Part shown: positions 13,117 through 50,073 of the stretch, one piece after another
Numbering within the stretch: the stretch's first letter is position 1
Layout: each line of letters starts with the position of its first letter
Assembly: GCA_009746045.1 (NCBI GenBank)
Contig: RPFO01000103.1
Location: 1,459,121 to 1,523,120, forward strand
Direction of reading: 5' to 3'
Length of the DNA: 64,000 nucleotides
DNA from: Mesostigma viride
Lineage: Eukaryota > Streptophyta > Mesostigmatophyceae > Mesostigmatales > Mesostigmataceae
Program-made: the position numbers and the translations under genes
Notes under the pieces: model-generated
The model's input: only the letters and a program-made list of their open reading frames with translations
Told to the model about the DNA's origin: nothing
Databases searched by the model: none

Positions 13117-14370
13117 TGTCACGGACGCGAGCTATGTCATCCGGGCGGCGCCCACTATGCACAAGACCGGTGACGTGCGCAAGGAATTTGTTTTCTACGC
13201 ATTTTCGACAAAGGCTAGTGACCGGGGGGGGACACTAGCACTTGCAGCATAAGAGCGGACGAAAGTGTACGTGCACGCGCGCCGGGCCAGGCACAGCTGG
13301 GCGCGCAGCACTGACTTGAGCGGACGGCAGCACAAGTGCGCAGCGTCGAGAGGATCATACGCGTGTTAGTAGTGGACAGCTGGAGCTGAAGCTGGACTGC
13401 TGGACTTCAACTGCGCCGAGGCTATTGACAGGCCAGGTGTCTTTGTGGTGTAGAATAGCGGGTCAACGTTATGAGGACTGGACAGAAAATGGAAAAGGAC
13501 AATTTGCGGTGCGGAGCCAGATCGCTGGAATGAATGCGAAATCGCTGGCAGCCCTACAAAGGGATTTCTTCTAGAAAGGAACGATTAGACGCAATGTTTG
13601 CTGGGCCACTCACACGCAAGGTGTGAGCGTGCAGATTGTCTGAAGGATATTATGCTTCGACCTTGGTGGACGTGACTCAATGCCGGACATTCCCAGGGAC
13701 AGAAATGCCGGAGCCTCTAGGAGATGAGATCGGCAACAGGGTAGCAATTTAGATTTGTCGGGATGCCTTCCTGCTTTTGTTGGCATGTGTGGTAGAAAGC
13801 CAGGACGGCAACTGGAATGCGGTTTCTATTTGCATGGTTCAGGCAGCAAGATAGTTTTGGCATTCCTGGCTGGACTGACAAGTGTGGCGTGTGTCATGCG
13901 TGTGGCATGACGAATGGTTTGGTTCATAGTCGAAGAGGACTCTCACGCAGCGTGTAGTCTCTTCGAGTCTCTCGTTAGTGGCCTTCGTGTTTCTCCCTTT
14001 CCTTGGGAGCAAGGCCGGTAGCATGTCATGGAGCGCTGCCTAACTGCGGGCTCGTGAGCATGGAGTGCATCGATATTGAGACTATCAACGTGTTGTAATT
14101 GTATTAACTTTCTCAATAAATTCCGCATGTGCGGCTTCATCATCAGACTGTGCAAAGTGTGTGTTGTGAAAGCATTGTTCTATAGCAGGGGAGGCAAAAG
14201 CACCCTCTTGCACCATCATATTGTCGCAATTAGAGTAGTTGGAGCGTCTAGCTAACGCCCCAGCAAGGATATTCAAACGCGGCACGCGACGGTACACAAG
14301 GGGATCAAGAAGGTGGTCATCAGGCACGAGGGACAGTTCCTTGTCCTCGGCTGAGAGCCCTCTTTTCATT
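13117..14370 (+). mobile_element. Gypsy G 5' LTR-like region and leader
   Basis: Starts TGTCACGGACGCGAGC directly after the target duplication. Its first 390 bp recur at 49541-49929 with few changes, and the whole region recurs inverted at 684-2010. The right boundary is uncertain: homology with the other copy ends near 14368, and the 140-bp terminal module that follows this region elsewhere is absent here. It may be a 1.25-kb LTR, or an LTR that lost its tail. Confidence 0.65.
14085..14369 (-). CDS. Antisense open frame in gypsy LTR-like region
   Basis: A 94-residue frame, MKRGLSAEDKELSLVPDDHL at its start, runs opposite to the element. The copy at 690-970 shows the same peptide in part (GLSAEDTELSLVPDDHLIDP) but is frameshifted. 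No domain is recognised. It could be a captured fragment, an antisense regulator or chance. Confidence 0.3.
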   Translation of the reverse strand: MKRGLSAEDKELSLVPDDHLLDPLVYRRVPRLNILAGALARRSNYSNCDNMMVQEGAFASPAIEQCFHNTHFAQSDDEAAHAEFIEKVNTITTR

Positions 14371-14529
14371 ACTCGAAGAGACTAGCTCCATCTGCAAAGG
14401 AACATTTTCATTTCAGCAAAGAGAGACGGTGTGCAGTTTTCTGGGGAAGACTAGCACACATAGTGGCCTGATCAACCATTAAGTCTTTCAGATTAGACCG
14501 TTGCTACTTGGTAGTGGTTGTGGCAGTTT

Positions 14530-17500
14530 ATGTCATATCACACTAGGTCGGTCACAGCGTTTTTGGCAAGCCACGCAGGCTGTGCCAACACGGGCGTCGA
14601 CACCGACGGGCAGGAGCTCTCCAGGGTCGATACCACCATCAACATGTCAGGAACTGACCCCACAGCATCAGGCAGTGGTGGGTCAGCGCCGGCAGCTACG
14701 GGCGGTCAAGCAACTGACCCGCCCAGCGGTCGTCTCGGCACTAGTGCGGACACCGCTTTGTTAGGTAATGGAGCGCCTTCCCTTTCTTCGGCAGGGGACG
14801 GTGGTGCTCTTACCCAAGTGCTGCGCCTGCTGCAAGAGCAAGCGGCAGAGCTGGCGGCACTCCGAGCTCAGCAAGCGACGCAGTTATCGCAACAGGCGAC
14901 GCTTGTTGAAGAAACTGTGCGACTTGCTTTGGAGCGCGCGGAATCTACGGCTGAAGCGAGGCGTGCTACGGAGCGCGCTGAGCAACGGCGGCAGGCGGAG
15001 GCAACCACGGAAGCTGCACGCGCCTGCCAAGCTGCGGCCCAACGCGACGCCGAGGCCAGGCAGGCTGCCGACGAGGAGGCCGCTGCCGAGGAAGCGCGGC
15101 GACATGAGGCGCTGCGCGACCAACGCGGACACTTCGACGAAGAGCGCAGTGGGACAGGTCCACTACGCAACGTTGAGCCCAGTCAGCCACGCGTCGGACC
15201 AAGCGGTCAACGGCGGGGCGACGGGGAAATGGCGCAGGATGACGAGCTGCAGCCGAACGTCGGTCGGGTAGGCACCCGGTCGACTGCCGACGCATCTTAT
15301 ACGCTGGGGGGGAACCTACGGGCACCCAACCAAGGCACGTTATCGTGGCGCGGCGGGTATGGTGCAGCCCCCAGGGGGGGAGCATCAGGTGGCTTGTTTA
15401 GCACAGGTCGGCCACCCATGACGGCGGCAGCAACGCCGTTGGGTGGCACCGCAGGGCGGCCCAGGCTTGGCGGCACTCGGTCAGACTTCGGCTGGGGCCA
15501 AGTCGATCGGGAGGTAGCCAGCATACCATGGGGTGAGGGCGACGACGTCCAGCGACCCCACCGCATGCCGTACGGCGTGCATGGCGAATCCACTCGTGTG
15601 CCATCGCTGCCCAAGGTGGAGCTTCGCGAGAAGTTCACCTCAGCAGGCACGGGTGCGACTTTAGAGGAAGCCTATGAGCTCTTCCGAGCTCATTGTAACA
15701 CTTATCGTTATGCCTCGGGGTATCCTCTTCGCCATGAGATGGTGATGGATTTTATTCACCTTTTTTTCCATGACCTGACCAAGAAGAAGGTCCAGGTTTT
15801 GGTCCAGCATTACCGAGCGCTCGTGGACCGATGTCATCGCACGGACATATGGTTTGCGCTCACGGACATGGGCACACCGGATCTCGACTCGATCATCTTC
15901 GATGTCGACCCGGCAGAGCAGCTGTGGCAGCAACTGCGGCTGGAGTACCCAGTTGAGCACGTCAAGGCCATCGCGGAATGGAATGGAGCGTTCACCGTCG
16001 CCGAGGGTGAGGATCCGGCTTTCTCCCTTGACCGGCTTCTCGCGTTTGCGGGCAAAGTGCCTGATTATACGCAGACCAAGGCTTGCCGGTTATGGCGGAG
16101 TGCAGTGCCCCTGCTGGCCATCGATCTTCCGGAGCCGCCCGGTGGGGAGTGGACTTTGGTGACTCTCTGTGCAGCATTCAAGCGGCTGCTCAGGAAGCGT
16201 GCGGAAGGCGAGAAGGGTATCTCGTCTGAGCTGGCTGAGATGCGCAAGAAGATGGCTGAGATGGAGAAGGCCATCGCGGTCAAGGGTGGCCAGCGGCTGC
16301 CTGGTGCGGGGCGCGGTGAATATGTCGGCACTCAGGGTGGTGGCAACGCCGGTCACGGGGGCAGCGGCGGTGGCGGTCAGGGTGGCAGCGGCGGTGTCAG
16401 TCGTGGTGGCGGCGGCAGTGGCTACGGTGGTCGGGGTCGCGGTGGTGGTCGAGGCGGAGGCGGTCGTCCGCCGTCATCGGATGGGACTCAGGAGGCGCAG
16501 GGCGTGCAAGGCGCGCTGGGCGCACCCACCCCGTCACGCGGTAAATGTTACCTTTGCGACAAGGATGGGCACCTTAGTCGCGAGTGTCCAAGCCGCTGCA
16601 CGAAGCCGCATGGGGCAGACACGAAGTGGCACCTGATGAACAAGTGTCCAGCCGCGGGCATCAAGACGGTCCACTTCGCCGAGATGGCGGGCAAGACCGA
16701 CTCGATGGAAGCCCAGGTGGCTGCCATCAAGCATGGTGAGGAGGCGACGGCGCCCCCCAACCAATTCGCGACGGTGTACCGGGAGGACCCATTCTGGGCG
16801 CCCATGCCGGGTGACGTCGAGATCAACGCTGCGGAGGCTACCAAAGGCAAGCAGGCACGCAGCCCGCTTTCTTTTCAGCAGGCACCCATGTTGCCTGCCG
16901 GGCAGTTGCCCGCGTCCTTTTCCATGCCGCTGGCTGGGGTGCAATCTGCTTTTGAGCATGCGAACCCTGCTGGGCTGGAGCAGCGTAGGCGATTGGCGCC
17001 TGTGTACCCAATGCCGTTCATTGTGGACGTACCCATGTTTTCAGCACGGCAGGTGGTCGACACCTTCGGGCAGAAGGGGGTTGAGTGGCTGGGGTCGGTT
17101 GTGTCCGAGATCCAGTTGTTCGCAGATGGGCATGATGTGCGCACCTTGCGCAATTCTGAGTCCGTCACCTACGGGCGTCAGCCGGTAGAAGCCGCAGTGC
17201 CCGTGGTGCAAGCGGGAGTGGTCAGCACAAGTAGCCAGCAGCGCACTAGTGCAGTTCCCCAGGTTCCCACGGTGGTTCCATACCCCAATGGTGAGCCGTC
17301 CATAGCGTTCCAAGCAGTTGGAGCCTGTGGAGATGTATGGAGCGACATGGTGACATGTCCGTTGGTTGGCGCAGTCAAGCTTGATAGCGGTGCTCAGCCG
17401 CTAGTCATCAGCACAGACTTGGCCACCATGCTGAACCTGACCTACGAGAACGGTGGCTTAGTGGAAAGCCCCGTGTCTGTGTCAGGTTGGCAGGGTCCGG

Positions 17501-19116
17501 CTAGTAAGCCGTACGCTATGACGGCGGTTAAAGTCAACGTGATTTTCAATCCGTTGCGCGCCTCTAGCATGACCACCGTGTCCGCGTATGCGCTGGTGGT
17601 CAACAAGTGTGGATATTCCGCACTACTCGGGGTGGATGTCCTTGCTCGCGCCATGGTTCAGGTGGACTATAGGGCGGAGGAGGCATCTTACATCCCTGAT
17701 TGGGATGGGGCTGGCCTGAAGCGGGCCAGTGTGCCGGTCTCATGCTTCAGTTCTTCAGCCGGGGCTGCACGCCTCAACCCTTCCGCGGCTGCGGGCGTGG
17801 TGGAGGTCAGCATGGTGGAGGTACGGGCGGCGGGCTCATCGGCGTGGGACAAGCATCGGACGGTGCTGCCTCAGCCAACGGCGAGCATTGCCAAGATGCG
17901 CACGCAGTGGTCGCTGGATGCTGTGACGTCCACGCGGCAGCTGGCTATGCGCAAGCGGGTGACTGAAGCCGTCATCACCATTCCTCAGATGGCCAGCCAT
18001 GGCCTCACTTTGGTGCAACCGGGTGTCTCGGAGGCCCAAGGTAATTTTTCTGCTGCAATCTTACCGCAGGCCCCTGATTTTGCCAAGGGTGCGGTAGTGT
18101 TGGAACTGTTTGCGGGGATCGGAGGGGGCATTGCAGGCTTTTTGGCCGCAGGCGGCGTGTGCCGTAAACTCATCGCGGTAGAGCCATCGCACAAGGCGCG
18201 TCAGGTGTACTTCAGTCACTGTGGCGTGTTGTCGCGAGAGTATCCCGCGCAGTTTCCGCCATCAGCATGGCGTGACCCGTTTGGGGAATGTCCTCAAGAT
18301 ATCCGAGCCATCGGTGAGGTGCAGGTGCAGCAGTTGTTGCGCAGGCATCATGCCATCGACTTGGTAATTGCGGGTTGGGAGTGCCAGGGCCTGAGCCAGG
18401 CAGGGCAAGGGCGGGGGCTAGCCGATCCGCGTAGCGCGCTGTTCTGGGAACTGTTGCGTGTGGTGGGACTGTTGCAGTCGCGTCAGCCCCATCCGCCTGC
18501 GTATCTGTTTGAGAACGTTGTGGCGGGTGACAGCCCACATCAGGCGGTGCGGGAGGACTGGGCTACAATCGTGGCACTCCTGGGGGAGCCCATCGTGTGT
18601 GACAACGCAGGGCTGGGTGGGCTCACGCATCGTTTGCGTGCCTATTGGACCAACGTGGCGTGTGCGACCGGTGTGCAGGCGGTCTTGGGGGCCGTAGCAA
18701 GGCAGCATCCGAGTGTGTCTGCGGAGGTAGCATTGCCTTCCCACCTAGTCACGCAGAAGGTGGATAGCAAGGATCGCCCACCGTATGCACGCGTTAACCG
18801 GGTCGGGAGCCCCATGTGTGCACTGCCGACCCTGGTCAGTTACCAAGGGTCGACAGCATACCGTGATCGGGGTAAGGGTCTCGTTTGGGACACTACCACC
18901 GGTCTGTTGGTGCAGCCACCCGCAGAATTTCGTGAGGCCAGCATGGGTTTTCATGTCGGGGCCTCGGCGCTGCCGGGCGTGCTCGAGAGTGAGCGCTGGT
19001 CTTTGATAGGCCAGGCTATGTCGGTGTTGCAGGTCGGGTATGTGCTGCTTGCATCGGTTGCCGTGCGCCAGTCTGGGGGGGCGTCCCCAGCCAATCCGGC
19101 CGCCTCAGCAGGTTGA
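14530..19116 (+). CDS. Gag-protease-C5 cytosine methyltransferase polyprotein (gypsy G ORF1)
   Basis: About 1,528 residues from ATG 14530; ATG 14644 is an alternative start. In order: a coiled-coil Ala/Glu/Arg-rich stretch (14,800-15,150), a capsid-like helical region (15,600-16,200), a Gly-rich linker, a zinc knuckle CYLCDKDGHLSREC (16,546), a retropepsin with LDSGA (17,385) and ALLGVDVL, and a cytosine-C5 methyltransferase (18,090-19,075). The last has motif I (LELFAGIGGG), the catalytic Cys in WECQGLSQAG (18,382), motif VI FENV (18,508), HRLRAYWTN and a motif X-like segment. The usual Pro before the Cys is Glu. HRxRxxW after ENV recalls Dnmt3-type enzymes, but I cannot assign the clade. 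The frame is unbroken, so the protein looks expressible. Likely role: particle formation plus CpG-type methylation of element or host DNA. The latter is inferred from reported retrotransposon methyltransferases. Confidence 0.9.
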   Translation: MSYHTRSVTAFLASHAGCANTGVDTDGQELSRVDTTINMSGTDPTASGSGGSAPAATGGQATDPPSGRLGTSADTALLGNGAPSLSSAGDGGALTQVLRLLQEQAAELAALRAQQATQLSQQATLVEETVRLALERAESTAEARRATERAEQRRQAEATTEAARACQAAAQRDAEARQAADEEAAAEEARRHEALRDQRGHFDEERSGTGPLRNVEPSQPRVGPSGQRRGDGEMAQDDELQPNVGRVGTRSTADASYTLGGNLRAPNQGTLSWRGGYGAAPRGGASGGLFSTGRPPMTAAATPLGGTAGRPRLGGTRSDFGWGQVDREVASIPWGEGDDVQRPHRMPYGVHGESTRVPSLPKVELREKFTSAGTGATLEEAYELFRAHCNTYRYASGYPLRHEMVMDFIHLFFHDLTKKKVQVLVQHYRALVDRCHRTDIWFALTDMGTPDLDSIIFDVDPAEQLWQQLRLEYPVEHVKAIAEWNGAFTVAEGEDPAFSLDRLLAFAGKVPDYTQTKACRLWRSAVPLLAIDLPEPPGGEWTLVTLCAAFKRLLRKRAEGEKGISSELAEMRKKMAEMEKAIAVKGGQRLPGAGRGEYVGTQGGGNAGHGGSGGGGQGGSGGVSRGGGGSGYGGRGRGGGRGGGGRPPSSDGTQEAQGVQGALGAPTPSRGKCYLCDKDGHLSRECPSRCTKPHGADTKWHLMNKCPAAGIKTVHFAEMAGKTDSMEAQVAAIKHGEEATAPPNQFATVYREDPFWAPMPGDVEINAAEATKGKQARSPLSFQQAPMLPAGQLPASFSMPLAGVQSAFEHANPAGLEQRRRLAPVYPMPFIVDVPMFSARQVVDTFGQKGVEWLGSVVSEIQLFADGHDVRTLRNSESVTYGRQPVEAAVPVVQAGVVSTSSQQRTSAVPQVPTVVPYPNGEPSIAFQAVGACGDVWSDMVTCPLVGAVKLDSGAQPLVISTDLATMLNLTYENGGLVESPVSVSGWQGPASKPYAMTAVKVNVIFNPLRASSMTTVSAYALVVNKCGYSALLGVDVLARAMVQVDYRAEEASYIPDWDGAGLKRASVPVSCFSSSAGAARLNPSAAAGVVEVSMVEVRAAGSSAWDKHRTVLPQPTASIAKMRTQWSLDAVTSTRQLAMRKRVTEAVITIPQMASHGLTLVQPGVSEAQGNFSAAILPQAPDFAKGAVVLELFAGIGGGIAGFLAAGGVCRKLIAVEPSHKARQVYFSHCGVLSREYPAQFPPSAWRDPFGECPQDIRAIGEVQVQQLLRRHHAIDLVIAGWECQGLSQAGQGRGLADPRSALFWELLRVVGLLQSRQPHPPAYLFENVVAGDSPHQAVREDWATIVALLGEPIVCDNAGLGGLTHRLRAYWTNVACATGVQAVLGAVARQHPSVSAEVALPSHLVTQKVDSKDRPPYARVNRVGSPMCALPTLVSYQGSTAYRDRGKGLVWDTTTGLLVQPPAEFREASMGFHVGASALPGVLESERWSLIGQAMSVLQVGYVLLASVAVRQSGGASPANPAASAG

Positions 19117-19257
19117 GGCGCGTGCAGCCAAACTGAAGCGCCCTGCAGCGACGGGGACTTCATCAGCATGGGGGTGGCGTCTGCGACAGGTGTGGACTAT
19201 CATTCTCATGACCACCCTGCTGACCAGCACCGTGCTGGCCGGCGAGCCCACGCTGCA
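19010..19257 (+). CDS. Start of gypsy G pol frame (+1 to ORF1)
   Basis: The +1 frame is open from 19010, overlaps the end of ORF1 by about 107 nt, and runs to the tandem array at 19258. Deleting the array and one TGCA continues the frame in phase into the RT frame at 44169. Pol would therefore be made by a +1 shift in the overlap. A G7 run (19075-19081) lies there and could be a slip site, a mutation or a base-calling error. Confidence 0.7.
19254..19257. repeat. Target-site duplication of tandem array (left), TGCA
   Basis: TGCA here and at 44169-44172, flanking the array. The four-base length agrees with the AAAA duplication of gypsy G. Confidence 0.65.
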
Positions 19258-20697
19258 AAATCCAGTGTGATGCAGGTCACGGACATACTTGGCCGCCGAC
19301 CTCATGACAGGCAATTCCGTAGCCAGCCAGGTGTAGAATAAAACCATGATGCTTTATTTATATATTTGGAAAGCAACCAAACCATTCACATTTAATTTCA
19401 AAAGACATCGACAAGAATACAAGTGTTGTCTAGTCGTATAATGTCGTACTTGTGCGTCACTGTCCAAATAAGGCTAAGCGGTTCTTGATAACCTAGCAGG
19501 CCTCGGGTGACGCCACACTGCTCCGCTTGGCTTACGGCTGGCAGTGTCCTTTAGCGCCCCCTATCCTGTCTACCTATCCCGCTTACCCCAGCTATGGCTC
19601 ACTGGCCAACGACGACCGGGTTCCTTCCCGAGTCTCGCCCACAATACACACATCATCTTGACGAAACCAAACAGTTATCACTTCCGTCAACCAATCTCAT
19701 GACAATTACTCATTGCAACCACTCTCGGGGGCTGCTCCGGATTGTTCCACTATTAAACCCCTTGACGACAACACCAAGTTGTGAGGGAGAGTAACGAGCA
19801 AACAACGACCACCATGGCCGCTGCCGTGCTCCTAAATACCTCCAAAAATCCCGGCATCCATGCGCTGTCGCATTTGCCAGCAAGCCGCCTGACGTGCAGT
19901 TAGACTGCCAGCAAAATGCTTAGCAAGTCTGTTCGACAGCCACGTGCGAGCCAGCACACCGCACACTACGATCTGCGTATCTAGCTTTGTCCGATGGACT
20001 GAACATCATTCCGTCTAGACAATACAAAAGATTCGTAACTGCCAAATGTCACGCACCGGAATATTGCGCAAGCCACCAAGGCTTTGCGCCCCAAAGTCTT
20101 GCGCCCGAACCTAAGTCAGGTCACCTAAGACTGTCACTCTAGAAATTCAGGCCTTTCCGGCGCGGCGCTCTACACCGGCCCAAGGAACAAAGCCTGCGGC
20201 CTATACTGAATCGGAACCAACCAAACGTCGGACGTAACGATTCCAATTACGGCAATCGCGCAACTTCTTGAGTGCACGGACGTAAATGATCACGGACGTG
20301 ACAGCTGTCGCGTTTGCGTGCCATTATATCCTGGACTGATCATTACCGCTACTTGAATGCATCCACTATCAGCAGTAATCATGTGTGTGATATGCCACCT
20401 CCCCCCCCACTCTTTAGCTCACAACAACTTGAGAGCAAAAAGTGAAAGAAAGGCATCTCACACAACCGAAGGAAGCCCAAAGAGGGCGTCATTCCAGGCA
20501 GCAGCAAAAAGGAAAAAAAAAATCCAGCTGCTCAAAGATGCTTTTCCAGGATCAGCAACAACCTTAACATGCATGCTTTTACAGGCTTATTAGCAATAAC
20601 CCCTTCAATGGCTTTTTACAGGGAAAAGCCTAACCTCTTCAGATGCTTTTGAAGGCTAAGCAATAACTCTTCCTTGTGCTTCCCTGGGTGAAGCAGG
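19258..20697 (-). repeat. Tandem 1.49-kb unit, copy 0 (partial)
   Basis: Almost identical to the four units at 38599-44168, and separated from them only by Copia B. It lacks the first roughly 50 bp of the unit. Read on the minus strand, each unit has a CACGCAAACGCGACAGC/TGTCACG junction (near 20303 here) resembling the module-to-LTR junction of gypsy G. The unit has no long ORF; short frames of 60-90 residues recur only because the DNA repeats. Confidence 0.85.
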
Positions 20698-21344
20698 AGT
20701 TAGCATTTTTGGGCAACCAATATGCTAAGTGGATGCAGTTTGGAAAGACCTTTCCAACGCCGTGCTGACCGCCTGAAACAGACAAGGGACGAGAAAGATA
20801 TGAGGTCCCGAAGTCCTAGCCGTCCGTGGCCGACTAGGGTACAGTCCTCTGGTATAGTGGACAGGACACGTGGCAGGCCGTGCCTGCACAGGCTTAGCCT
20901 GACTATCACGTGACTGTGGTCCACGTAGACCAGAGGAGCAGCAGCCTGTGGCTGGTGGAATACAGGACTGGCACAGGTCTGCGAGGATACTAGGCCTTGC
21001 AGGCTTGTGACAGGTCCTGTACTTCCTAGGTTGCAGAGTCTAGGCAAATCCAGTTCGTCCTGGCTCTGCACTGATGCCAGTGGACGTTGAGGATTTGCTT
21101 GCCTGCCTGCACGTGCCTCGTCACGCCGATGGGAACGAGGAACAACACAAAGGATATAGCTTGGTCATGGGGGATGACCAGCTATCTTGGCAAGCACGAA
21201 CCGAGGCTCCCACATTGGACGTGGAACCGCTCACCGTGGTCGTGGCTTGGTGCACGAGTTAAAAGGTTGCTGCCTTGCAACTTTGGCTCATCCCGTTGTG
21301 TGCGTAAGAGACCAGGAACTCACAGTTCTGGCTGCTCGCTAACT
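20698..21344 (+). mobile_element. Copia B 5' LTR
   Basis: 647 bp with inverted ends AGTTAGC and GCTAACT. It matches 31793-32344 plus 38504-38598 with about two base differences, so B is young. The insertion is at the unit boundary of the array (left flank AAGCAGG, right flank GGAGGAACC). The target duplication is not clean. Confidence 0.9.
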
Positions 21345-21375
21345 CGTACTATTGCATTTCTGTTTGCAAGGTTTC

Positions 21376-22524
21376 ATGTCGGCCGAGGCTCGGGTTGAGA
21401 CACCTGAGTCATCTCCCAGGCGCGAAGCAGCTCCAGAGTTGCCGGCGCGCGAAAACGCATTCTACCCCTATACTCACCAATCCAACGCTTCTACATTTGT
21501 GCAAGCGGCCTACGTTGCGAGGGGCCTTGCGGAAGGCGGTTGGGTCGCTGTGTTCGGTAACGCAGCAGGGCCGTCGGCGAACGACCCTGTGGTGATGAGG
21601 ATTCGGGCGACGACGTCGCCAGGGGAAACAGGGCGGGTCTGCACGGAGCGCCTCGTCGCCATTCGCGACGAAATTGCTTCGTTGATCTACAGTTTAGAAG
21701 TTGCGTACCAGGGCGGGCACGTAACCATCCAGGCGCTTGACTTAGCGCGTGAGACGCTGGGCCAACTGGTGGCCATCTGTTTAGGTGGAACCAGATTGTA
21801 TAATCACTGGGTGGCGACAAGCTCGCTGGGGGAGGGGACCGACGCGTCACACATCATACGGGACGCGCAGACGCGCGAGGCCGATAGCCCGTGGGATTCG
21901 GCCGAGGTGGTGGCTCAAACGTGTGAGCACCTGGTCAACATTCTGATCCAAGAGGCGCGTGGTCACGCAGATCACTGGGTGATCACTACGCGTCCGCCGG
22001 GCATTTGGTCGACCTTGGACACTCCGAGGTTGCAGAGCAGGCCAGGGGCGACTGGGCCGACGGTGACAGTCATCACCGGTCGAGAGGTCAGCGACGAGGA
22101 GTTCCACGATCAGTTCGTGGACCGACCAACGGGCATCATAGCCCGGTCGTCACAACAGATTGACGAGGGTGACGGCACAAACGAGGGATACTCAGCTCGG
22201 CGTAGAGCAGAGTTAAACATACCATTTGAGCCGGAACACGATTTTGGTGAGATTGGTCGGGGGTCGCGGAACGATCGGCGAGGTGGTGGTAGTCGGTGGG
22301 TCAGAAATCTTCAGTGGTATCGCCGTGGCAGTGCAGCCAGACTGCCGGTAGAGCAGACAGCAGCCGGGAGGCCGGTGAGCCGTGTGCTAGGTCCTTACAA
22401 CGCGGAGGAGGTCCGCTCAGTTCCACGCGTGGGGACACCGGTGGCACGCACAGCGCAGGAGCGTGAAGAGGAGGCAGTAGCTGGAGAGCAGCCAGCGGCT
22501 TCTTCAGGCAGCACCAGCGCTTGA
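21376..22524 (+). CDS. Copia B ORF0, accessory protein of unknown function
   Basis: 382 residues from ATG 21376, only 31 nt after the 5' LTR, and ending 53 nt before the gag ATG. The N-terminal half is helical with an Ala-rich composition (VQAAYVARGLAEGG, QALDLARETLGQLVAICLGG). The C-terminal third is Arg/Gly-rich and probably disordered. I recognise no family. It occupies a place where Copia elements normally have nothing, and Copia A has non-homologous-looking ORFs at the same place. A structural or RNA-binding role is possible but not shown. Confidence 0.75.
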   Translation: MSAEARVETPESSPRREAAPELPARENAFYPYTHQSNASTFVQAAYVARGLAEGGWVAVFGNAAGPSANDPVVMRIRATTSPGETGRVCTERLVAIRDEIASLIYSLEVAYQGGHVTIQALDLARETLGQLVAICLGGTRLYNHWVATSSLGEGTDASHIIRDAQTREADSPWDSAEVVAQTCEHLVNILIQEARGHADHWVITTRPPGIWSTLDTPRLQSRPGATGPTVTVITGREVSDEEFHDQFVDRPTGIIARSSQQIDEGDGTNEGYSARRRAELNIPFEPEHDFGEIGRGSRNDRRGGGSRWVRNLQWYRRGSAARLPVEQTAAGRPVSRVLGPYNAEEVRSVPRVGTPVARTAQEREEEAVAGEQPAASSGSTSA

Positions 22525-22577
22525 GCCTGTTCTTCCTTGTCTATCGCCTGTTTTGTTTTGCCATCCCACTGTATATA

Positions 22578-23390
22578 ATGCCTCGTGGCAAACCGGGAGA
22601 CGGCGACAAGGGCGAGATGGAGGCACCAGCTGGGGCGAGCCAGGAGCCTCGGCAAGACAAGGAGCAGCTGGTGGGGGAGGCGATCCCAGCCAGCGACGGC
22701 GATGGGGGAAAGAGACCAGGCAGCAAGAGACGGCACGAAGACTCGGTGGAGGAGGCGCGCAAGGCGCGGGCGCTAGGGGCATCTGATGCAATAACGGTGG
22801 CGAATGGGCAACCAGCCGTGGAGAAGCGTAAGAGGGACACCTCCGCTGACGGCAATGGTAAGAGGCTTCATGTGGATGTGATCTCCCCTGTGCTTGCTGG
22901 CCCAAGTGGCGTTGTTGCTGTGACACCCACTGTGGTGGAGCCGGTGAAAGCGCTGCCAGGGTCGAGACCTCACATGAGTGCAGTCACTCTTATGAATGGA
23001 CAAAAGCCTCTTAACCCACCACTAGCACAGGAAGCTCTGGACAAGTGGCTAGAGGACATGGAGCTGGTTGTGCTCTCCGTGGACCCCACTGTCAACCTAG
23101 TGCAAGTGTTTCACTCGTCCACGTGCAACAGGGACTCGTCAGAGCGTGTCAGGGAAAAGGCTAGGACTGGTGTCAAGGATAAGCTAACCTGGGCACAGTT
23201 CCTGGATGGGTTGAGGGAGGAGTTCTCTGACAAGGTTCTCAACCTCACCAACTACTATAAACATCAGTATGACACCTTTGAGATAGTGGGTCCTGTGGCA
23301 GAGGAATGGGCTAGGCTCAACCGTATCAGGGACAAGGGGGCCAAGTATGGCTTCCTGGTCACAGATAGGGCCTTGGCAGACTATTTCCTG
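22578..23390 (+). CDS. Copia B Gag, N-terminal part
   Basis: Starts at ATG 22578 (MPRGKPGDGDKGEME). A charged, disordered N-terminus is followed by a UBN2-like Copia capsid region (LDKWLEDMELVVLSV, LTWAQFLDGLREEF, RALADYF). It is broken by a CACTA element at 23391. The frame resumes in phase at 26668 when the insert and one TG are removed, giving a continuous FLDRMG stretch. Confidence 0.85.
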
Positions 23391-23399
23391 CACTAGGAA

Positions 23400-23735
23400 C
23401 TCAATTTCTGAGAAAATTCTCAAAAACCCTCAATTTTCTCACCCCTTTGAGAAAAAAGGTGAGAAAAGTGAGAAAAATCTCAATTTTTTTCCGCAAACGC
23501 TAGGCAACAAAATCTCACCAGGGTGAGATTTTGGTGAGAAAAAGGGGGTTTGGGTGAGATTTGGGTGAGAAAAAACCCTAAAGTGAGAAAAAAGGTGAGA
23601 ATGGGTGAGAAAAAGTGAGAAAAAGTGAGAAAAAGTGAAAAAATTGAGAAGTTTCTCACCAACACGAGAAAAATCACTAACACGAGAAAAATCACAAGTC
23701 AACGTGGTGAGAAATTTCTCACCAAGAGTGTAACA
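23400..23735. repeat. Left subterminal GTGAGAAA array
   Basis: More than a dozen irregular copies of GGTGAGAAAA-like words, mostly in one orientation. The opposite orientation fills 26310-26655. Confidence 0.85.
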
Positions 23736-24370
23736 CGAAAAAAATCATGAGCTTTATTTCATTAAGTCATTAATGTGAAAATAAACTCAGCACCACTAAT
23801 TAATTAATTACATGATTAATTGAACTCGTGCTCCCGTTGGATCACGGAGCACCGAAGTGCTTTTAATCCCTGTGTGTGCACAACAGGAAGGGCACAGACC
23901 CCCTTTCTCCTTCATGCCAAAGGCATGTCGCAGCTGCTATTGGACCCGATAAACGATCCGGCAATCTGTGGGTGCAATAAGACCCATGTGAGCATATCAT
24001 AACGGGTGCATGGGCAAGTAATCTGAGCATTGCCATGACGTAGCATGGTTGTACAAGGACTAAGCTAAGGCTATGGCTGGTTGTGTACCGTGTGTTAGCG
24101 GTGCACGTGACTAGGTATAATGGCTCAGCTAGGCAAACATTCTAGGCATGGCTGCCATGGCGGCAGAGACTGCCAATGAGTACAAGATAGGGCTATTCTA
24201 GCCCGCAGGGGGCGTCCACATCTCGTGGTTGATCATCAGGTCCCCGCCCCTCCAGTAAACCTTGGGACGTCAGGATTGTTGATTCCCAGCACGTTGAACG
24301 CGTTGTGTCAGCACAGCGATCCCCCCTGCATCCAAACAAAGGCACACCGATAACCAAGAAAAGAGTATGC

Positions 24371-24466
24371 AAATGTGCAGCCTTGTTCATTGAAATTATG
24401 GCTGGCTTACGCAAAGAGCGACTGTAAGATGACCTATACAGTGGGGCCGGAAACAGCTTGCTTGAT
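24371..24466. repeat. Internal inverted repeat of CACTA element, left arm
   Basis: About 95 bp matching the complement of 25230-25324 at roughly 85 percent by eye. The two arms enclose 760 bp that may be a further small insertion. The enclosed part carries repeated GATGCGGGCCC words near 24750-24850. Confidence 0.7.
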
Positions 24467-25229
24467 CAGGGCGTGTTTTTCGAGCTTCACTGGCCGGGAG
24501 TGTCTAGTGGTGAGAACCATTGCTGCGATCGCTTTCCCACCATTTACGAGGAAATACCCGCAAATGAAAAACCACTGAAACGGTCTAGCTTGATTCAGTC
24601 ATTGCATTAGCCACATGCCATCATGCATGTTTCCAAACGTCCAAGAACTGCCCACGGTGCAAATGCAAAAATCCGGAGGACACGACCTCATTGCTTCATA
24701 TTTGTATGCAGAAGAATAAAAAAGTAACATGCATTAAGGGCCCGCCTGCATAAAGGGCCTGAATTCTGATGCGGGCCCAACGGCAGCACCGCCAAAGCAG
24801 ATAAGGGCCCGCAGTCTGATGCGGGCCCCACGGCACCACCGCCATAGCAGAGCTCGAAGGTCGTGGTGCGCGTGAAACGTACGTACCTATGCCCTTTGTC
24901 GGTAGGTGCCGTTGGGGTCAAATTGGGTGCCGCCAAAATCGGGCCGACGCGTCAATAGACTGAGGCCGTCGATGAGTGCCATCATGCGGCTTGGGTCACT
25001 TCTGTTGGAGAACTTCAGCTAAGTTAACTTAACGCAAACCACTGGTCGCCCGCGTCGGGAACCGGCCCAACGGCTCTCCCGCAACAGAAAATTACGCGGC
25101 ATACTGCATAAGTCGTCGGATGGTTACATTTCGACGGTCAAGATTTCATGATGAGGTTTGCGTTCAATTTGCCGCAGTTTGCCGCCCAGAGAAAGTAGTT
25201 GTTGGACTCGTTGCCCACGATGAAACACA

Positions 25230-26655: not shown

Positions 26656-26665
26656 GTTCCTAGTG

Positions 26666-27210: not shown

Positions 27211-27260
27211 CTAGCTACATCATCCCCTGTAAATAGTCAATCACCCCTTGGGGAAGGTGT

Positions 27261-38153: not shown

Positions 38154-38498
38154 AGTTGAGTAACTCTAGAGCCCTAGGAGCTGGCTCTAAGTTCCCCATG
38201 TCCGTCCGCACGCCTTCCGCTAGCGTCCGCTAAGCCGCCGGCTATAATCCGGCGGTCCGATGCGGTCGACCGGTCTAAGGGCGGCGCCTAGGGCCGGCGC
38301 CACCTAGGCCCCAGTCCGGGGCCTTATCCGGGTCGGTACGGACAGCTAGCTTGTCCCACGGTTACGGCTAACCGGATAGGGTTTGCTGGCTAAGACATAA
38401 ACCAGTGGTGGGCCAGCTCCGACAGCAGTTCTCTGTGTTCGCCTTATCCCAAGCTCAACGTGACCGACCGCCATAGCTGAGCCGGTCGGGCTTTAACT
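38154..38498 (+). mobile_element. Copia C 3' LTR
   Basis: 345 bp, identical by eye to 32345-32689. It is followed by the GCTTG target duplication. Confidence 0.95.
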
Positions 38499-38598
38499 GC
38501 TTGGTGCACGGGTTAAAAGGTTGCTGCCTTGCAACTTTGGCTCATCCCGTTGTGTGCGTAAGAGACCAGGAACTCACAGTTCTGGCTGCTCGCTAACT
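38499..38598 (+). mobile_element. Copia B 3' LTR, remaining part
   Basis: The GCTTG duplication is followed by the last 95 bp of the B LTR, ending GCTAACT. One base differs from the 5' LTR (GTGCACGGG against GTGCACGAG). Confidence 0.9.
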
Positions 38599-43069: not shown

Positions 43070-44168
43070 AGGAACCCCAGGCTGGCCGAACTGAACCCGC
43101 CAAGGGTTGTTCGCTCGTTAAAAATCCAGTGTGATGCAGGTCACGGACATACTTGGCCGCCGACCTCATGACAGGCAATTCCGTAGCCAGCCAGGTGTAG
43201 AATAAAACCATGATGCTTTATATATTTGGAAAGCAACCAAACCATTCACATTTAATTTTAAAAGACATCGACAAGAATACAAGTGTTGTCTAGTCGTATA
43301 AATTTGTCGTACTTGTGCGTCACTGTCCAAATAAGGCTAAGCGGTTCTTGATAACCTAGCAGGCCTCGGGTGACGCCACACTGCTCCGCTTGGCTTACGG
43401 CTGGCAGTGTCCTTTAGCGCCCCCTATCCTGTCTACCTATCCCGCTTACCCCAGCTATGGCTCACTGGCCAACGACGACCGGGTTCCTTCCCGAGTCTCG
43501 CCCACAATACACACATCATCTTGACGAAACCAAACAGTTATCACTTCCGTCAACCTTGATCTCATGACAATTACTCATTGCAACCACTCTCGGGGGCTGC
43601 TCCGGATTGTTCCACTATTAAACCCCTTGACGACAACACCAAGTTGTGAGGGAGAGTAACGAGCAAACAACGACCACCATGGCCGCTGCCGTGCTCCTAA
43701 ATACCTCCAAAAAACCCGGCATCCATGCGCTGTCGCATTTGCCAGCAAGCCGCCTGACGTGCAGTTAGACTGCCAGCAAAATGCTTAGCAAGTCTGTTCG
43801 ACAGCCACGTGCGAGCCAGCACACCGCACACTACGATCTGCGTATCTAGCTTTGTCCGATGGACTGAACATCATTCCGTCTAGACAATACAAAAGATTCG
43901 TAACTGCCAAATGTCACGCACCGGAATATTGCGCAAGCCACCAAGGCTTTGCGCCCCAAAGTCTTGCGCCCGAACCTAAGTCAGGTCACCTAAGACTGTC
44001 ACTCTAGAAATTCAGGCCTTTCCGGCGCGGCGCTCTACACCGGCCCAAGGAACAAAGCCTGCGGCCTATACTGAATCGGAACCAACCAAACGTCGGACGT
44101 AACGATTCCGATTACGGCAATCGCGCAACTTCTTGAGTGCACGGACGTAAATGATCACGGACGTGACA
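43070..44168 (-). repeat. Tandem 1.49-kb unit, copy 4 (partial)
   Basis: 1,099 bp. It stops at GGACGTGACA, exactly the internal junction of the other units (CGTGACA/GCTGTCGCG), and is followed by the TGCA duplication. On the minus strand the array therefore begins TGTCACG, the same terminus as gypsy G. Confidence 0.9.
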
Positions 44169-47100
44169 TGCATCGGGTAATACACCGTGCGGCACGCGAG
44201 GCTCCGGCGGTGGGTGTCACACCAGGTGTGGCAGCCTTTTCCTTGTTCCACGACGATGCGGCTAGGGCGCCGCATCTTGAGGCACATGCGGTAGCTGTGG
44301 GTGATCCCGCGGATACGCACCCCTGGGCTATTGGCGAACACCTTTCTGATGCGCAGCGCTCAGCCATGCTAAAGTGGCTAGGCACTGCAAGGGGGGCCTT
44401 CGCTTTCACAAGTGATGAACTGGGGTGTTTCAATGGTGGGACCATGCGTGTTCCATTGGACACTGACACTCCTTTGTTCCGACGCCAGCATCGCCTGAGT
44501 CAGGCCGAGTTGGATTTTGTAGCCGAGCAATGCAAGGAGTTAGAGGATGCCGGTATCATCAGGCAATCTTCCTCCAGCTATGCTGCTGCCATTGTCGTTG
44601 CGCCCAAGAAGGACGCTATCACCGGGGCATGGACGGGTATGCGCATGGCCACCGATCTGCGGTTGCTGAATGCACACACACCCGTGGACCGTTACCCCAT
44701 GCCACGTGTGGATGATGTCCTGGATAAGATATCTCCTCATGTGAAGTTTGTGTCCTCGCTGGACCTGCGTAGCGGCTTTCATCAGATCGCAGTTGCGCCG
44801 GAGGATCAGCGGAAGCTTGCATTCTGGGGGGCGGCAATTTGTATGAGTGGGTGCGCATGCCCTTTGGGCACCGCAACGCTAGTGCTGTTTTCCAACGAGC
44901 TATGGACAAAGTGCTTGCAGGTCTTCCTTTCGCCGCTTGTTACATTGATGATGTAATCGTCTTTAGCGCGACATTTGAGGAGCACCTGGCGCACTTGGAG
45001 CAGGTTCGCTTGGCTCTCGAGGAGCATAATATGCGGCTGCACCCTGAGAAGTGCAAGTTCGCCCAGCGGACCCTCTCATTCCTTGGTCATCAGATTGTGC
45101 CGGGTGGCCGGACGCCTGATGCCGCCAAGGTCGAATCCATTGCGCAGGCCGCCTTACCCACGGATGTCTCAGGGGTGCGGGCGTATTTGGGTTTGGCTGG
45201 CTATTACCGAGGTTACATTGAGAACTTCAGCAGCAAGGTGAAGCCCTTGACCGAGTTACTCAAGAAGGGGTGCGTGTGGGCGTGGGGTCCCGCACAGCAA
45301 CGCGCCATCGAGACGATCAAGCAGGAGCTCACGTCGGCACCGATTCTGCGCGCCCCTGACTATGCTTTGCCATTTGTGTTATATACCGACTGGTCCAAGG
45401 TAGGACTGGGTGCGGTCTTGGCGCAAAAGGATGGTGATGGGCGCGAGCACGTTATTGCTTATGCTAGTCGCAGCAACAACCCAGCGGAGAGCCGGTATTC
45501 TTCCTATGAGGGGGAGGCACTGGCTGTGGTGTGGGCCATCAAGCACTTTCGCCCGTATTTATTTGGGCGCGTGTTTACTCTGGTGACAGACCACCAGCCG
45601 CTTCAGTGGCTAATGACCAACACCAACCTGACGGGTAAGCTCGCCCGATGGGCCATGATTATCCAGGAGTACCACATGACCATTGTGCATCGGGCCGGCA
45701 AGGACCATGTCAACGCCGATGTGCTATCCCGATACGCCATGCCTACCACTGTTGACCACACTGGAGCCCGGGCCATGGGTGCCGAGGGCTCGTCTGGTTC
45801 TGTGGTCTTTGTGAACGCTGCTGGGTATGCGGCCGACGATGAGGAGGAGGCATGGTGGCGCAGTGTCGAGTACTCTGTGGCGGACTTCGGCATCAGCGAC
45901 GACCCGGTGCGGCCGTCTCCATTCACGCCATCCAAAGCTGTGTGCGCTATGGAAGAGGGTAGGTCTCTGTCCTTTGACATTGATCCTTCTCTGCAGCAGC
46001 TGATCGCTGTGCAGGCTCTCTTAGCGCGTAGCTCTCTTGCTGATTGCTACACCGCTGATATCTGGCTAGATGGTCGAGTGTTGGAGCAAGTGCAGGGTGC
46101 TGTCTTGACTCCTACTCCAGTCGATTGGACTCCTGCTCAGAAGGCGACGGAGTTGAACAGGGTGCAGCACAGGGCTGCAACCTATGGTTGGGAAGATGGG
46201 GTTTTGTACAAGCTGTTGGGCAAGCGTAGGGTGGTCGTCCCACCGCCTGACAAGCGCGTTGCTATAGTGCAGGCGTACCACGAGCGGTATGGTCACTTGG
46301 GTGGCAATCGCACGCTCAGCCTCGTACGGACCAGCTATTGGTGGAATAACATGCGACACACGGTGGCCCAGGTAGTGGCCAGCTGTGTCCCGTGTGCTCG
46401 AACCAAGGCTAACTTTAGCGCAGATCATGGTGCCAAGGAGCTGATGTCGCTTCCCATCAAGGGCTTGTTTTATCGCTGGCACGTCGATCTGTGCGGGCCG
46501 TTTCAGGAGAGCCCTGACGGCAACCTCTATGTCATGGTATGCGTGGAGAGCTTTAGCAAATGGGTTGAGTTGATCCCCATTGCTGACAAGCATGCCGCTA
46601 CCACAGCGAAGCATTTTGCGGACATCATAACCAGGTTTGGGGCTCCCGCGGAGGTAGTCACGGACCAGGGTGGTGAGTTCAGGGGTGAGTTCCAGGAGTT
46701 GCTGGATGGATGTCTTATTGATCACCGTCGCACTTCTCGGGAGCATCCTCAGGCCAATGGTTTGGCTGAGAGATTGGTGCAGACCGTCAAGCAGGCGCTG
46801 CGCAAGTGGAGCCTGCAGGTGCCGGAGTCGGCCAGGTGGGATCGCGAGTTGGCATGGATTGCCATGGGTTATCGCATGTCTCCCCAAGAGTCTCTCGCTA
46901 CCTTCTCCCCGTATTTCCTTCTGTTCGGGCGTAATCCTCTTTTGCCTACGGAGGCACAGGTTGCGCACCCCGAACCCATGGCCTTCGACAACGCTCAGCA
47001 ATTTTTGGTTGAGGTGCTGGCCAGGGCAGAGACTTTTAAGAAGGTCATGCCCATCGCGATGAACAACTTGTTCATTGCTCAGCACAGGGACTCCCTGCGC

Positions 47101-47592
47101 TACGCTCAGCGCCGGGGGGGCGCATACATGGCTCGCCAGCTGCGGTTTAGGCCAGGGCAGTATGTTTTCCTGCGCACTCAGCTGAAGCACACTTTGGATG
47201 TGGAGGCGGGGCCCACCATTTTGCGCATTGTGGCTATCAAACCATCGGGAGTGGCAATTTTGGAGGGCGCCGACGGGAGCCGTACGACAGACAACCTCAG
47301 CAATCTCAGTCCCTGCTCGCTGCCCAATTTGGTCCACGACCTCCAACCGCACACATCTCGCCGAGTCAAGGACGCCCAGTGTCAGGTTTGTCACCGGGTC
47401 GATCAGGCGGAGTCCATGTTATTGTGTGATCAGTGTAACTGTGGTTGGCACATGCAGTGCTTGCAGCCAGTGGTCACCAGCATTCCGGAGGGGGATTGGT
47501 TTTGTCCAGTGTGCACCGCTGCGCAGTTTACCTCCCGCAGCTTGACTGCGGTCACCGCTGCCCTTGTCTTGGTACGATCGCTGTCTTCGTGA
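44169..47592 (+). CDS. Gypsy G pol: RT, RNase H, integrase, GPY/F-like module, PHD finger
   Basis: Ty3/gypsy pol. RT covers 44,480-45,100 (MATDLRLLN, LDLRSGFHQI, MPFGHRNASAVFQ, catalytic YIDD at 44,941). A one-base loss in a G run (44826-44831) splits the frame just before the MPFG region. RNase H (45,360-45,720) has YTDWSKVGLGAVL, YEGEALAVVWAIKHF and VTDHQPLQWL. Integrase has an H2C2 finger (HERYGHLGGN, CVPCARTKA) and a DDE core (WHVDLCGPF, VTDQGGEF, GLAERLVQTV). The tail has RFRPGQYVFLR and GPTILRIVAIKPSG, then a PHD finger with the full C4HC3 set at 47,383-47,520 (CQVC, LLCDQCNCGWHMQC, FCPVC). A chromodomain is usual at this place in chromoviruses; here it is a PHD finger. Upstream the frame is cut by the array. 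Confidence 0.95.
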
Positions 47593-47616
47593 TGGGGCCG
47601 GTCGCCAGCGAGGGGG

Positions 47617-47662
47617 GGAATCATGGGACAGGTCCTCGCCCACCCCACAGGGCATGCACTTA
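47617..47662 (+). repeat. Polypurine tract and first part of terminal module
   Basis: GAGGGGGGGAA (47609-47619) is followed by TCATGGGACAGG. The module is cut at GGCATGCA and continues at 49438. Confidence 0.7.
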
Positions 47663-49433
47663 TGTCTAATCACCAAGAAAATGTCCTCATATGAGGACAT
47701 TTTTAAGCATGGATACCATTTGTAATAACTCACACATTTCAACATATCCATGGGTACGGCATGGAACCATGTTCATTTATGATATGTTCAAGAGTAGCAA
47801 TGCTTAACATCCATGAAATATGCTCATGGTATAATGGTTTACGATTTATGAATGCAGGGGGGTCGCTACGCGAGTGACCAACAAGCACTCAAGTAAACAA
47901 TATGCCCAGAAAGAAGGCAGGGCCAGGTCATGGCTGGTCCTGAAAATGCACCCAAGGTGTCCACAACATGTCTACATTACACCCTCGCTATCCTAGACCC
48001 TGCAGCCTGCCGGGGGGGGGCACAAAATGTAACTGGCAGCCAGGGACCATGGTGCAGGCCAAATAGCAGGTGTAAAGCTAGCTCAAAGCTAGCTCAGTCC
48101 AAAGAATGAAATAAGAAGCAAATACTTGCCAAGGTTAGGTCCGTGATCGTTATTGGAGGCTTGGCTGCCACCACGGTGCTCGACAATGATGCTGAAGCCT
48201 TCAATCATATATGAAGCAGATACTGCAAAGAGGCACAAATAGCAATACAAGCACAATGTAAGCATGACAAGCTCAAGTTTCCAAGCCAGTCTAGCTCACT
48301 TGGACATGAGGTTAAGCGTTAGAAACATATGGGCAACATCCCAGCAAGCCTTGAAAAAGTTTTCAGCAACAAGGCAGTATATGTGTTAAATCAAACTACC
48401 ACATTGCAACTAAGCACAGTGACTTCTACTTGCTGCTGTTTTGACGACGCAAGGCCGTTTACCTTTTCAGTGACACCACGGGAAAAGAAAGCATTACCCA
48501 GCAAACTTCCTTTAAGTTCCCCGGACACAGGCGTAATCACAACCACGACGTTGGGCATTGAAAAGAACCGGAATCATTAAGTCTGCGGGGGTTATAAGCT
48601 ACGATACTCTTGACACGCTTATTTAGAACGATGCGGTTGCGGATGACATCCGGAACCTTGTTCTTGACGTGCGCCCAGGCCGCCAGCTGCGCGGGACAGC
48701 TCAAGAAATATATATTAAAGGACGGTGACGCCCGGGAAGCACCCAGCCTTGCGGCAAAAGTAAAATATGGCTCGCGCTCGCCGTGGTTTTCGCCAGGCGT
48801 GACTGCGATATCACGACGAAAAAATGGAGACTCTTTGACCCATCTAACTGCCCAGGTCCCTCTGTTGCCCGGGTCGCCCATTAACCCAGAAGCGTACCAT
48901 AACCCATACTCGCGATATCCGCAGCGCCTGGGCGGAAAAAGAAATTGTAAAACCGAACTGCATACTGACCTATCATGCCATCTACGTAGCTTCCAGATTT
49001 TCTTCAACGATGCCAAAATCCGTTCATGAACAATATTTTCGACATATACAAAGCACCTGCACGTCAAAAGCAGCATCTTCGAAATGACTAGATGATGATC
49101 TAAAGTTCTGTCTTCATTCGGGGCAAAATAATGGCCTATAACGTTCAGGCAAGCCTCAGAACTGGAACGACCCCATAGCCGTCACTCGACAAAATGCTCG
49201 ATTACATTGCAACGTTCTTGCTGTAGTAGGTACTTTTCCTCGCCTCATATTTTCCAGGTACGGTCGGCCCCTGTCGACCCCGGGGGCTTGGCGCGCTCAG
49301 TACCTATCCCAGTTTCGCGCCAAAACCCACCAGGGATCCTCAGGACCAACTTTGGCGCCAAAACCGCCCCCCTGACCCCCCCCGTCTCAAACGAGGACTA
49401 TGTCCTCAAATGAGGACATTTGGTTTTTGGACA
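47663..49433. mobile_element. Non-autonomous DNA transposon with palindrome-containing inverted ends
   Basis: 1,771 bp inserted in the gypsy terminal module. The ends read TGTCTAATCACCAAG and, on the complement, TGTCCAAAAACCAA. Each is followed by a palindromic word, ATGTCCTCATATGAGGACAT on the left and the same with ATTT on the right. CTTA (or ACTTA) flanks both sides. The interior has only short frames and no recognised transposase. Superfamily unknown. Confidence 0.7.
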
Positions 49434-49437
49434 CTTA

Positions 49438-49540
49438 CGGCAGGCACGTCAGCTCAGCTCACTTGGGTTTTACCAAATTAAGCTGAGTGGCCAGCCGCCA
49501 TGGTGGCGCCGGAGATTGTGGCACGCAGACGCGACAGCTG
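49438..49540 (+). repeat. Terminal module of gypsy G, second part
   Basis: Completes the module begun at 47617 and ends GCGACAGC, immediately before TGTCACGG at 49541. Confidence 0.7.
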
Positions 49541-50073
49541 TCACGGACGCGAGCTATGTCATCCGGGCGGCGCCCACTATATGCACAAGACCGGTGACGT
49601 GCGCAAGGAATTTGTTTTCTACGCATTTTCGACAAAGGCTAGTGACCGGGGGGGGACACTAGCACTTGCAGCATAAGAGCGGACGAAAGTGTACGCGCGC
49701 CGGGCCAGGCACAGCTGGGCGCGCAGCACTGACTTGAGCGGACGGCAGCACAAGTGCGCAGCGTCGAGAGGATCATACGCGTGTTAGTAGTGGACAGCTG
49801 GAGCTGAAGCTGGACTGCTGGACTTCAACAGCGCCGAGGCTATTGACAGGCCAGGTGTCTTTGTGGTGTAGAATAGCGGGTCAACGTTATGAGGACTGGA
49901 CAGAAAATGGAAAAGGACAATTTGCGGTGCAATCATGGGACAGGTCCTCGCCCACCCCACAGGGCATGCAGTTAAGGCAGGCACGTCAGCTCAGCTCACT
50001 TGGGTTTTACCAAATTAAGCTGAGTGGCCAGCCGCCATGGTGGCGCCGGAGATTGTGGCACGCAGACGCGACA
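49541..50073 (+). mobile_element. Gypsy G 3' terminal repeat (internally deleted)
   Basis: 49541-49929 matches the first 390 bp of the 5' LTR-like region. The sequence then jumps to the 140-bp module (49930-50073), which ends GCGACA at the target duplication. Compared with 540-2010, which has LTR-like region plus module over 1.47 kb, this copy lacks about 0.9 kb. TGTCACG and CGCGACA would make a near-perfect LTR-type inverted end. Confidence 0.7.

Follow-up and report, generated by a model that had tools for sequence, protein, structure and literature searches.

A Gypsy-type retrotransposon of Mesostigma viride that encodes a cytosine methyltransferase and a PHD finger and apparently inserts from a site within its terminal repeats

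The stretch of DNA analysed here, hereafter the window, comprises 64,000 nucleotides of the genome of the green alga Mesostigma viride (contig RPFO01000103.1, positions 1,459,121 to 1,523,120; C1480 in our search of the 440-Mb genome). Positions 13117-50073 of the window hold one Gypsy-type element, which encodes gag, a zinc knuckle, a protease motif, a C5 cytosine methyltransferase region (MT), a reverse transcriptase (RT), an RNase H, a DDE integrase and a PHD finger. These outer limits, given already in the original prediction made from the sequence alone, were borne out: the element starts with TGTC at 13117 and ends with GACA at 50073, and the sequence reads AAAA on both sides (13113-13116 and 50074-50077), a target-site duplication following a 4-bp rule that is seen also in nine other copies. 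On the + strand, the first of two terminal repeat pieces, A1 (13117-14362), begins with TGTCACGG and carries AATAAA at 14115; directly after it lies a putative self-priming primer-binding site (14371-14384), to which a site inside A1 (13955-13968), near the inferred 5' end of the RNA, is perfectly complementary over 14 nt. There follow gag (14518-17994), including the CCHC zinc knuckle (16546-16587) and the retropepsin motif LDSGAQ (17380-17397), the MT (17995-19116) with its motifs FAGIGGG, WECQG, FENV and THRLR, and the start of pol (19117-19257). Downstream of a nested insertion, pol continues (44169-47592) with the RT (YIDD at 44938), RNase H, an integrase with H2C2 and rve domains, a GPY/F-like region and, C-terminal to the integrase, the PHD finger (47380-47514). 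The polypurine-tract-like sequence GCGAGGGGGGG (47608-47618) stands directly before the second repeat piece, B1 (47619-49536), of about 143 bp and itself split by a 1.77-kb element with terminal inverted repeats (47663-49433). The element closes with A2 (49539-49930), truncated in its 3' part, and B2 (49931-50073), which ends with GACGCGACA. At the junction of B1 and A2 lies the palindromic decamer GACA-GC-TGTC (49533-49542), the proposed integrase site, which can be read also in a sister family of the same genome and in distant contigs.

Pfam detected zf-CCHC (2.1e-4) and DNA_methylase (4.9e-11) in the frame 14518-19116, and RVT_1, RNase H, Integrase_H2C2, rve and PHD (4.2e-9) in the frame 44839-47592. 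The domain calls of the original prediction therefore hold, two of them by eye: the GPY/F-like stretch, and the retropepsin, for which LDSGAQ at 17380 is joined by aspartyl-protease Pfam labels on some homologs. The order RT, RNase H, integrase, with H2C2 and rve present, is that of a Ty3/Gypsy retrotransposon. The pol gene is split by a 24.9-kb insert (19258-44168) flanked by a TGCA duplication (19254-19257), and copy L033 has the corresponding empty site; since the insert is a separate insertion, the two pol halves make up one gene, and the start of pol is contiguous with the RT in L032, L033 and L043. In the window copy the MT and pol are in different frames, with a break at 19116, and a second break is found within the RT (44168-44956 versus 44839-47592). 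The first of these is a trait of the window copy; MT and pol are normally in one frame, because 31 MT places elsewhere in the genome share frames of 2074 amino acids with the PHD.

The linkage of the MT and the PHD was followed across the genome, in which a PF00145 profile search rendered 127 matches. The listing for the window family took in 110 out of 521 candidate MT places and 150 out of 1142 candidate PHD places, and all pairings given here are lower bounds. At least 81 of the 110 listed MT copies pair with a PHD copy within 12 kb on the same strand, the other 29 having no listed partner, and in at least 78 of these near-identical copies the PHD lies 4139-4143 bp downstream. None of the listed PHD places lies on the opposite strand within 12 kb of any of the 110, which excludes chance pairing. 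At least 31 of the 110 MT places lie in a frame of 2074 amino acids, each with a PHD place in such a frame about 4.14 kb on. Seven PHD places among the 150 listed have frames of exactly 1356 amino acids. The sister family, represented by 20 fetched loci, all selected for the MT and with 67-73% DNA identity to the window, shows MT, RT and PHD in this order within the fetched stretch in 13 loci, and over longer stretches three loci hold a single frame of 1642 amino acids from MT to PHD; in the fetched stretches of the remaining seven (L010, L011, L012, L015, L019, L022 and L025) no PHD was seen. These results indicate that the MT and the PHD belong to one element, as originally proposed, and not always to separate ones. 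The genome also contains, mostly on small contigs (L002-L008), a multicopy bacterial-type C5 methyltransferase with a frame of 364 amino acids and an intact PCQ, whose neighbours in L002, L003, L007 and L008 are a repeat-rich frame and a conserved one that opens with MLVNTDDLPEY; its sequence is distinct from the element.

Homologs of the MT and the PHD include proteins of Klebsormidium, Marchantia and Chlamydomonas eustigma, and the MT region of the window has 99% identity to the predicted protein P0004 (jgi/Mesvir1). A blastp comparison of 26 homologs (P0004-P0029), selected by MT or PHD matches so that the counts are not a frequency, rendered 15 single proteins with both domains, nine with the MT and no PHD match (several of them cut-short proteins, and P0011 among them bearing a PHD Pfam label), and two with a PHD and no MT (P0022 and P0024). 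The original claim that no element with both domains had been described agrees with the papers surveyed; it has to be qualified, however, in that a database protein of C. eustigma already holds both and a relative with an MT has been known from Klebsormidium since 2018 (PMC5890265). Two domain orders occur among the homologs, protease-MT-RT and RNase H-MT-integrase. In quick trees limited to the family (SH-aLRT support, midpoint root), the latter order forms one cluster of the MT tree (14 rows, support 97), and in the integrase tree these rows fall together with three MT-less rows (17 rows, support 98). Since this cluster recurs in both trees, the MT has moved along with its pol, a history that involves either a single relocation or two captures, and probably one loss. 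P0029 is a long branch, and the placement of Klebsormidium is weakly supported; its protein P0020 (K. nitens) aligns over the window MT (39% identity) and integrase (53%) and has no PHD match, the protein seeming to stop before the PHD position. Two contigs from bins labelled bacterial, L050 and L051, encode the same lineage and carry GACAGCTGTC downstream of the PHD, where about 0.01 occurrences per contig would be expected at even base use. No MT was seen in the 7.4 kb of L050, the 5' side of which is cut, and P0022, a near-identical protein, likewise shows none in the residues that precede its RT, so that the B/A site does not seem to depend on the MT. L051 (CADCWO010000201.1), from a bin labelled cyanobacterium, is an MT and PHD relative and circular in the assembly through a 127-base self-overlap, which may reflect collapsed repeats only. 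In a search for relatives among viral contigs, 44 stretches matched a pattern and none was confirmed.

The terminal repeats do not have the arrangement of an integrated long terminal repeat (LTR) element. The order in sister copies, as in the window, is A1, coding region, purine tract, B1, GC, A2, B2 (A-coding-B-A-B), so that an integrated copy has A and B at its ends in place of two identical LTRs, and the unit B-A occurs once. A1 matches A2 at 97.7% in the window, and in the sister stretch C1690 no difference is seen between A1 and A2 in 1128 bp, or between B1 and B2 in 92 bp. A minus-strand neighbour in the window, a fragment of a related element (540-2850; integrase end, PHD, B, A, B), has the layout coding-B-A-B, and its A (2013-696) matches A1 at 88%. 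Both ends were examined in 15 copies, ten of which run from TGTC to GACA between 4-bp target duplications, whose sequences are CTTG, GGCC, TCTC, AGTT, AACG, TACT, TACA, CGGA, ACTC and, in the window, AAAA. Genome-wide, 32 sites at which B follows the purine tract end in CGCGACA, and 18 of them run on into GC-TGTC. This B/A joint is constant in the sister copies read, and its decamer is found also in the two distant relatives.

The A/B joint, on the other hand, is variable. A search by an A/B pattern other than that of the window family found 26 such joints in nine sequence forms, while the reversed-pattern control found none: 14 are plain, eight have 1, 3, 4 or 5 extra bases matching the priming site, and one of the four others resembles the purine tract in having a G-run beside a T-run. 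Variable joints of this kind are the look of joined reverse-transcript ends in retroviral two-LTR circles. Larger losses from A are seen in some copies (L013 and the window), and in L015, L019 and L022 a shortened coding region has its joint with B no more than 7 nt away from where B starts, as would be expected if cut-short transcripts were end-joined too. The pattern search found no A/B joint followed by A, against 26 A/B joints, which indicates that the cut is one-sided.

The sequence following A1 contains a perfect complement to a site inside A, of 14 nt in the window and of 15 nt at the corresponding place in the sister family, and in neither case was any of 1000 shuffles as good. The sequences of the two pairs differ between the families, and the site inside A lies 160 nt (window) or 129 nt (sister) before AATAAA. 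At the position of the window purine tract the sister family has GTAGCGAGGGGGGG. Tf1 is known to prime its own reverse transcription. The same has been described for Tcn1 (PMC6317226), and by analogy with both the pairs suggest self-priming. Because the priming site follows A and the purine tract precedes B, the reverse-transcribed LTR should be B-A; and because the ends at integration lie inside this B-A unit, the transcript ends must be joined and then cut where the half-ends abut. Insertion thus seems to take place from a site inside the terminal repeats and not from their ends. In the proposed route, an RNA would begin within A1 and stop at the poly(A) site of A2, and its 5' end would fold onto the site after A1 and prime. 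The purine tract would start the plus strand at B, reverse transcription giving BA-coding-BA, the ends of which would be joined into a circle or its equivalent; the integrase would then cut the palindromic B/A site next to the joint and so give A-coding-B-A/B.

Both added domains look conserved by selection. Between the window and the sister family (one pair in each case), the MT has 64% amino acid identity, with proportions of nonsynonymous (pN) and synonymous (pS) differences of 0.25 and 0.74, and the PHD region has 74% identity, with 0.20 and 0.78, silent change being near or at saturation. The window MT has an unrearranged motif order and keeps the catalytic Cys, ENV and the THRLR motif. 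Its best solved relatives are DRM (5.9e-5) and HhaI, and the Klebsormidium MTs have been named Dnmt3 (PMC5890265). The best-scoring solved relatives of the PHD are BAZ2B, Lid/KDM5 and ATXR5, and its position after the integrase is that of the chromodomain in chromoviruses; from this position and these relatives a targeting role is plausible. The PHD domains of BAZ2B, Lid and ATXR5 read unmodified H3K4, the same state that is read by the ADD domain of Dnmt3 enzymes. Most likely, the PHD would steer integration by reading histone H3, and the MT would methylate the DNA of the element or of its target in the host's own code. A polyprotein that unites reader, integrase and Dnmt3-like writer would be expected to prefer silent chromatin, where it could also deposit methylation. 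The original interpretation is supported in part: one element does encode both domains, and their use to choose a chromatin target and to mark or disguise the element's own copies is a suggestion. The footprint of methylation in CpG mutations was uninformative, as 11 copies are 99.85-100% identical.

Several other explanations have to be considered. The window copy, split by the 24.9-kb insert and with its two frames differing, could by itself be taken for an MT and a PHD-bearing pol of different elements nested by chance, but the empty sites and uninterrupted copies, the fixed spacing in at least 78 of 110 copies, the single frame in at least 31 and the single proteins with both domains refute this reading, which we reject and which retains practically no probability. 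More can be said for an ordinary LTR element, whose A and B pieces would be leftovers of tandem or recombined LTRs after normal insertion: sites like a primer-binding site and a polypurine tract bracket a normal B-A LTR, and copies with a single B fit later recombination. Such copies, A-coding-B without A2-B2, make up four of ten (L015, L016, L022 and L027; L015 and L022 also lack part of pol). However, in each of the ten copies in which both end strings were found the duplications adjoin TGTC and GACA, the same layout recurs in two Mesostigma families, the B/A decamer is present in two distant contigs, and the layout A-coding-B-A-B is given also for Klebsormidium (PMC5890265). An ordinary LTR element is thus improbable. 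No copy with a target duplication at the start of B and the end of A was seen, in a survey that included no systematic search for them. An LTR consisting of 13117-14362 alone was rejected, as B stands at both 3' positions and the duplications lie at TGTC and GACA. The joined-end route itself has some observations weighing against it. Five of the 15 copies depart from the full terminal rule (the fetched stretches of L013, L023 and L026 showed no start string, L014 has a truncated B2, and L017 has no A and no matching duplication), and the single-B copies could come from recombination between B1 and B2. The RNA-duplex energy test gave a weaker result than the complementarity, with 18 of 300 (window) and 4 of 300 (sister) shuffles as stable, and nothing convincing as a self-priming pair was found in L050 or L051. 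In addition, random cutting of a two-LTR circle ought to yield A/B-A-coding-B as well, yet none was found; with 0 A/B-A joints against 26 A/B, such cutting is disfavoured.

An element of the DIRS/PAT/Ngaro type with a tyrosine recombinase would account for the layout, since A-coding-B-A-B is a split direct repeat arrangement of the kind described for DIRS (PMC5890265). It is nevertheless highly improbable: an rve integrase with H2C2 is encoded, 4-bp duplications are made, and Pfam found no tyrosine recombinase or phage integrase match in the three window frames scanned. It can also be the case that the MT and the PHD are inert passengers, the MT having lost catalysis and serving at most as a binding or structural module. 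The catalytic Cys of motif IV, normally preceded by Pro, has Glu before it (ECQ) in the sister family and in 12 of the 19 rows compared, the window and an own-species copy among them, and this too speaks against an active writer. On the other side, the window retains the catalytic Cys, ENV and THRLR, both domains have a pN far lower than their pS, and PCQ stands in five of the 19 rows, including those of Klebsormidium and Marchantia (two rows gave no pattern match). We consider inert passengers rather unlikely.

The nested insert (19258-44168, + strand), which is no part of the coding sequence of the element, is made up, by lengths worked out from the repeat table, of roughly 4.7 tandem 1.49-kb units, among which a Copia-like element (20696-38598) has inserted. 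The units carry the decamer GACAGCTGTC four times (20300, 39693, 41183 and 42674), identical to that of the main element, and the right end of the array is GACA beside the TGCA duplication, while its left end is not TGTC. The array probably represents a multimer of a non-autonomous element that relies on the same integrase. The Copia-like element has weak RVT_2 and zinc knuckle matches and repeats of about 649 bp, the 3' one of which is split by a third element (32344-38498), which has repeats of 346 bp and three long frames that no Pfam profile matched. The 1.77-kb element in B1 has imperfect terminal inverted repeats, TGTC...GACA ends that resemble those of the main element, and a 4-bp CTTA duplication. 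Outside the main element, weak, below-cut-off matches to RVT_2 (11334-12230) and rve (49996-50979) flank it, and it appears to lie inside a minus-strand Copia-like element; direct repeats are found on either side (9585-9968 and 53682-54080). At 6281-6422 there is a solitary B-like repeat, with no A match listed beside it.

Our preferred reading, to which we assign a probability of roughly 0.78, is that of one autonomous green-algal Gypsy-type lineage that carries a Dnmt3-like MT and a post-integrase PHD in its polyprotein and integrates by the joined-end, B/A-cut route. The broader proposal, which we regard as an even bet, is that there is a class of DDE-integrase retrotransposons in which the transcript ends are first joined and the integrase recognises the internal palindrome GACA-GC-TGTC where the half-ends abut, each integrated copy being a circular permutation of an LTR element; this lineage would pair a methylation writer with a histone reader in one polyprotein, and the 1.49-kb tandem array would ride the same site. 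The element is a natural union of DNA-methylation writer, histone reader and integrase, and as a single alga carries well over a hundred copies of nearly the same sequence, its effect on host chromatin should be directly measurable. The joined-end intermediate and the internal site also offer an explanation for DIRS-like repeats in an element with a DDE integrase. The accepted precursor for retroviral integration is linear DNA, and a clean natural exception, if true, would reopen the question of how integrases choose their ends.

Open literature on PHD with Gypsy, integrase, methyltransferase or alga, judged mainly by titles and abstracts, rendered no Gypsy element with both an MT and a PHD. 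The closest described system is KnitGypsy-Dnmt3 of Klebsormidium nitens (de Mendoza et al. 2018, PMC5890265, the only paper that our search on KnitGypsy gave), which likewise has a Gypsy pol and an intronless Dnmt3-type MT in the polyprotein. That paper calls its repeats those of a DIRS element, although the domains are Gypsy ones, and the legend of Fig. 4 gives them as A-coding-B-A-B (PMC5890265). The main text of that paper makes no mention of a PHD, and its section on KnitGypsy-Dnmt3 gives neither an integration model nor target duplications (PMC5890265). Homology of the MT and the integrase (P0020) and the A-coding-B-A-B repeats join the two elements, the placement in the integrase tree being weakly supported. 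DIRS, PAT and Ngaro elements are alike in their split direct repeats, A-coding-B-A-B. They are not known to make a target-site duplication; the Mesostigma element, in contrast, has a DDE integrase and 4-bp duplications, and no tyrosine recombinase matched in the window frames. Ectocarpus Gypsy families with a chromodomain or Tudor domain (PMC12477816) also have a reader fused to the C-terminus of Pol, but the main text of that source mentions no PHD and its methyltransferase passages do not concern a C5 MT in Gypsy. Ginger1 DNA transposons (PMC2836005) share a Gypsy-like integrase, TGT termini and 4-bp duplications, and Ginger1-9_HM has a PHD; they differ in being DNA transposons without RT, with the target CCGG or CCGT and terminal inverted repeats of 40-270 bp. 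The Mesostigma element, with its RT and with duplications other than CCGG or CCGT, is therefore not a Ginger1. Kapitonov and Jurka reportedly described in 2003, to go by their title, CR1-like retrotransposons with esterase and PHD domains, which are alike in having a PHD in a retrotransposon and differ in being non-LTR elements. Finally, the chromoviruses (Tf1/sushi, Tcn1) share with the Mesostigma element a chromatin-reader domain after the integrase and self-priming, whereas the Mesostigma element has a PHD in place of the chromodomain, together with an MT and permuted termini.

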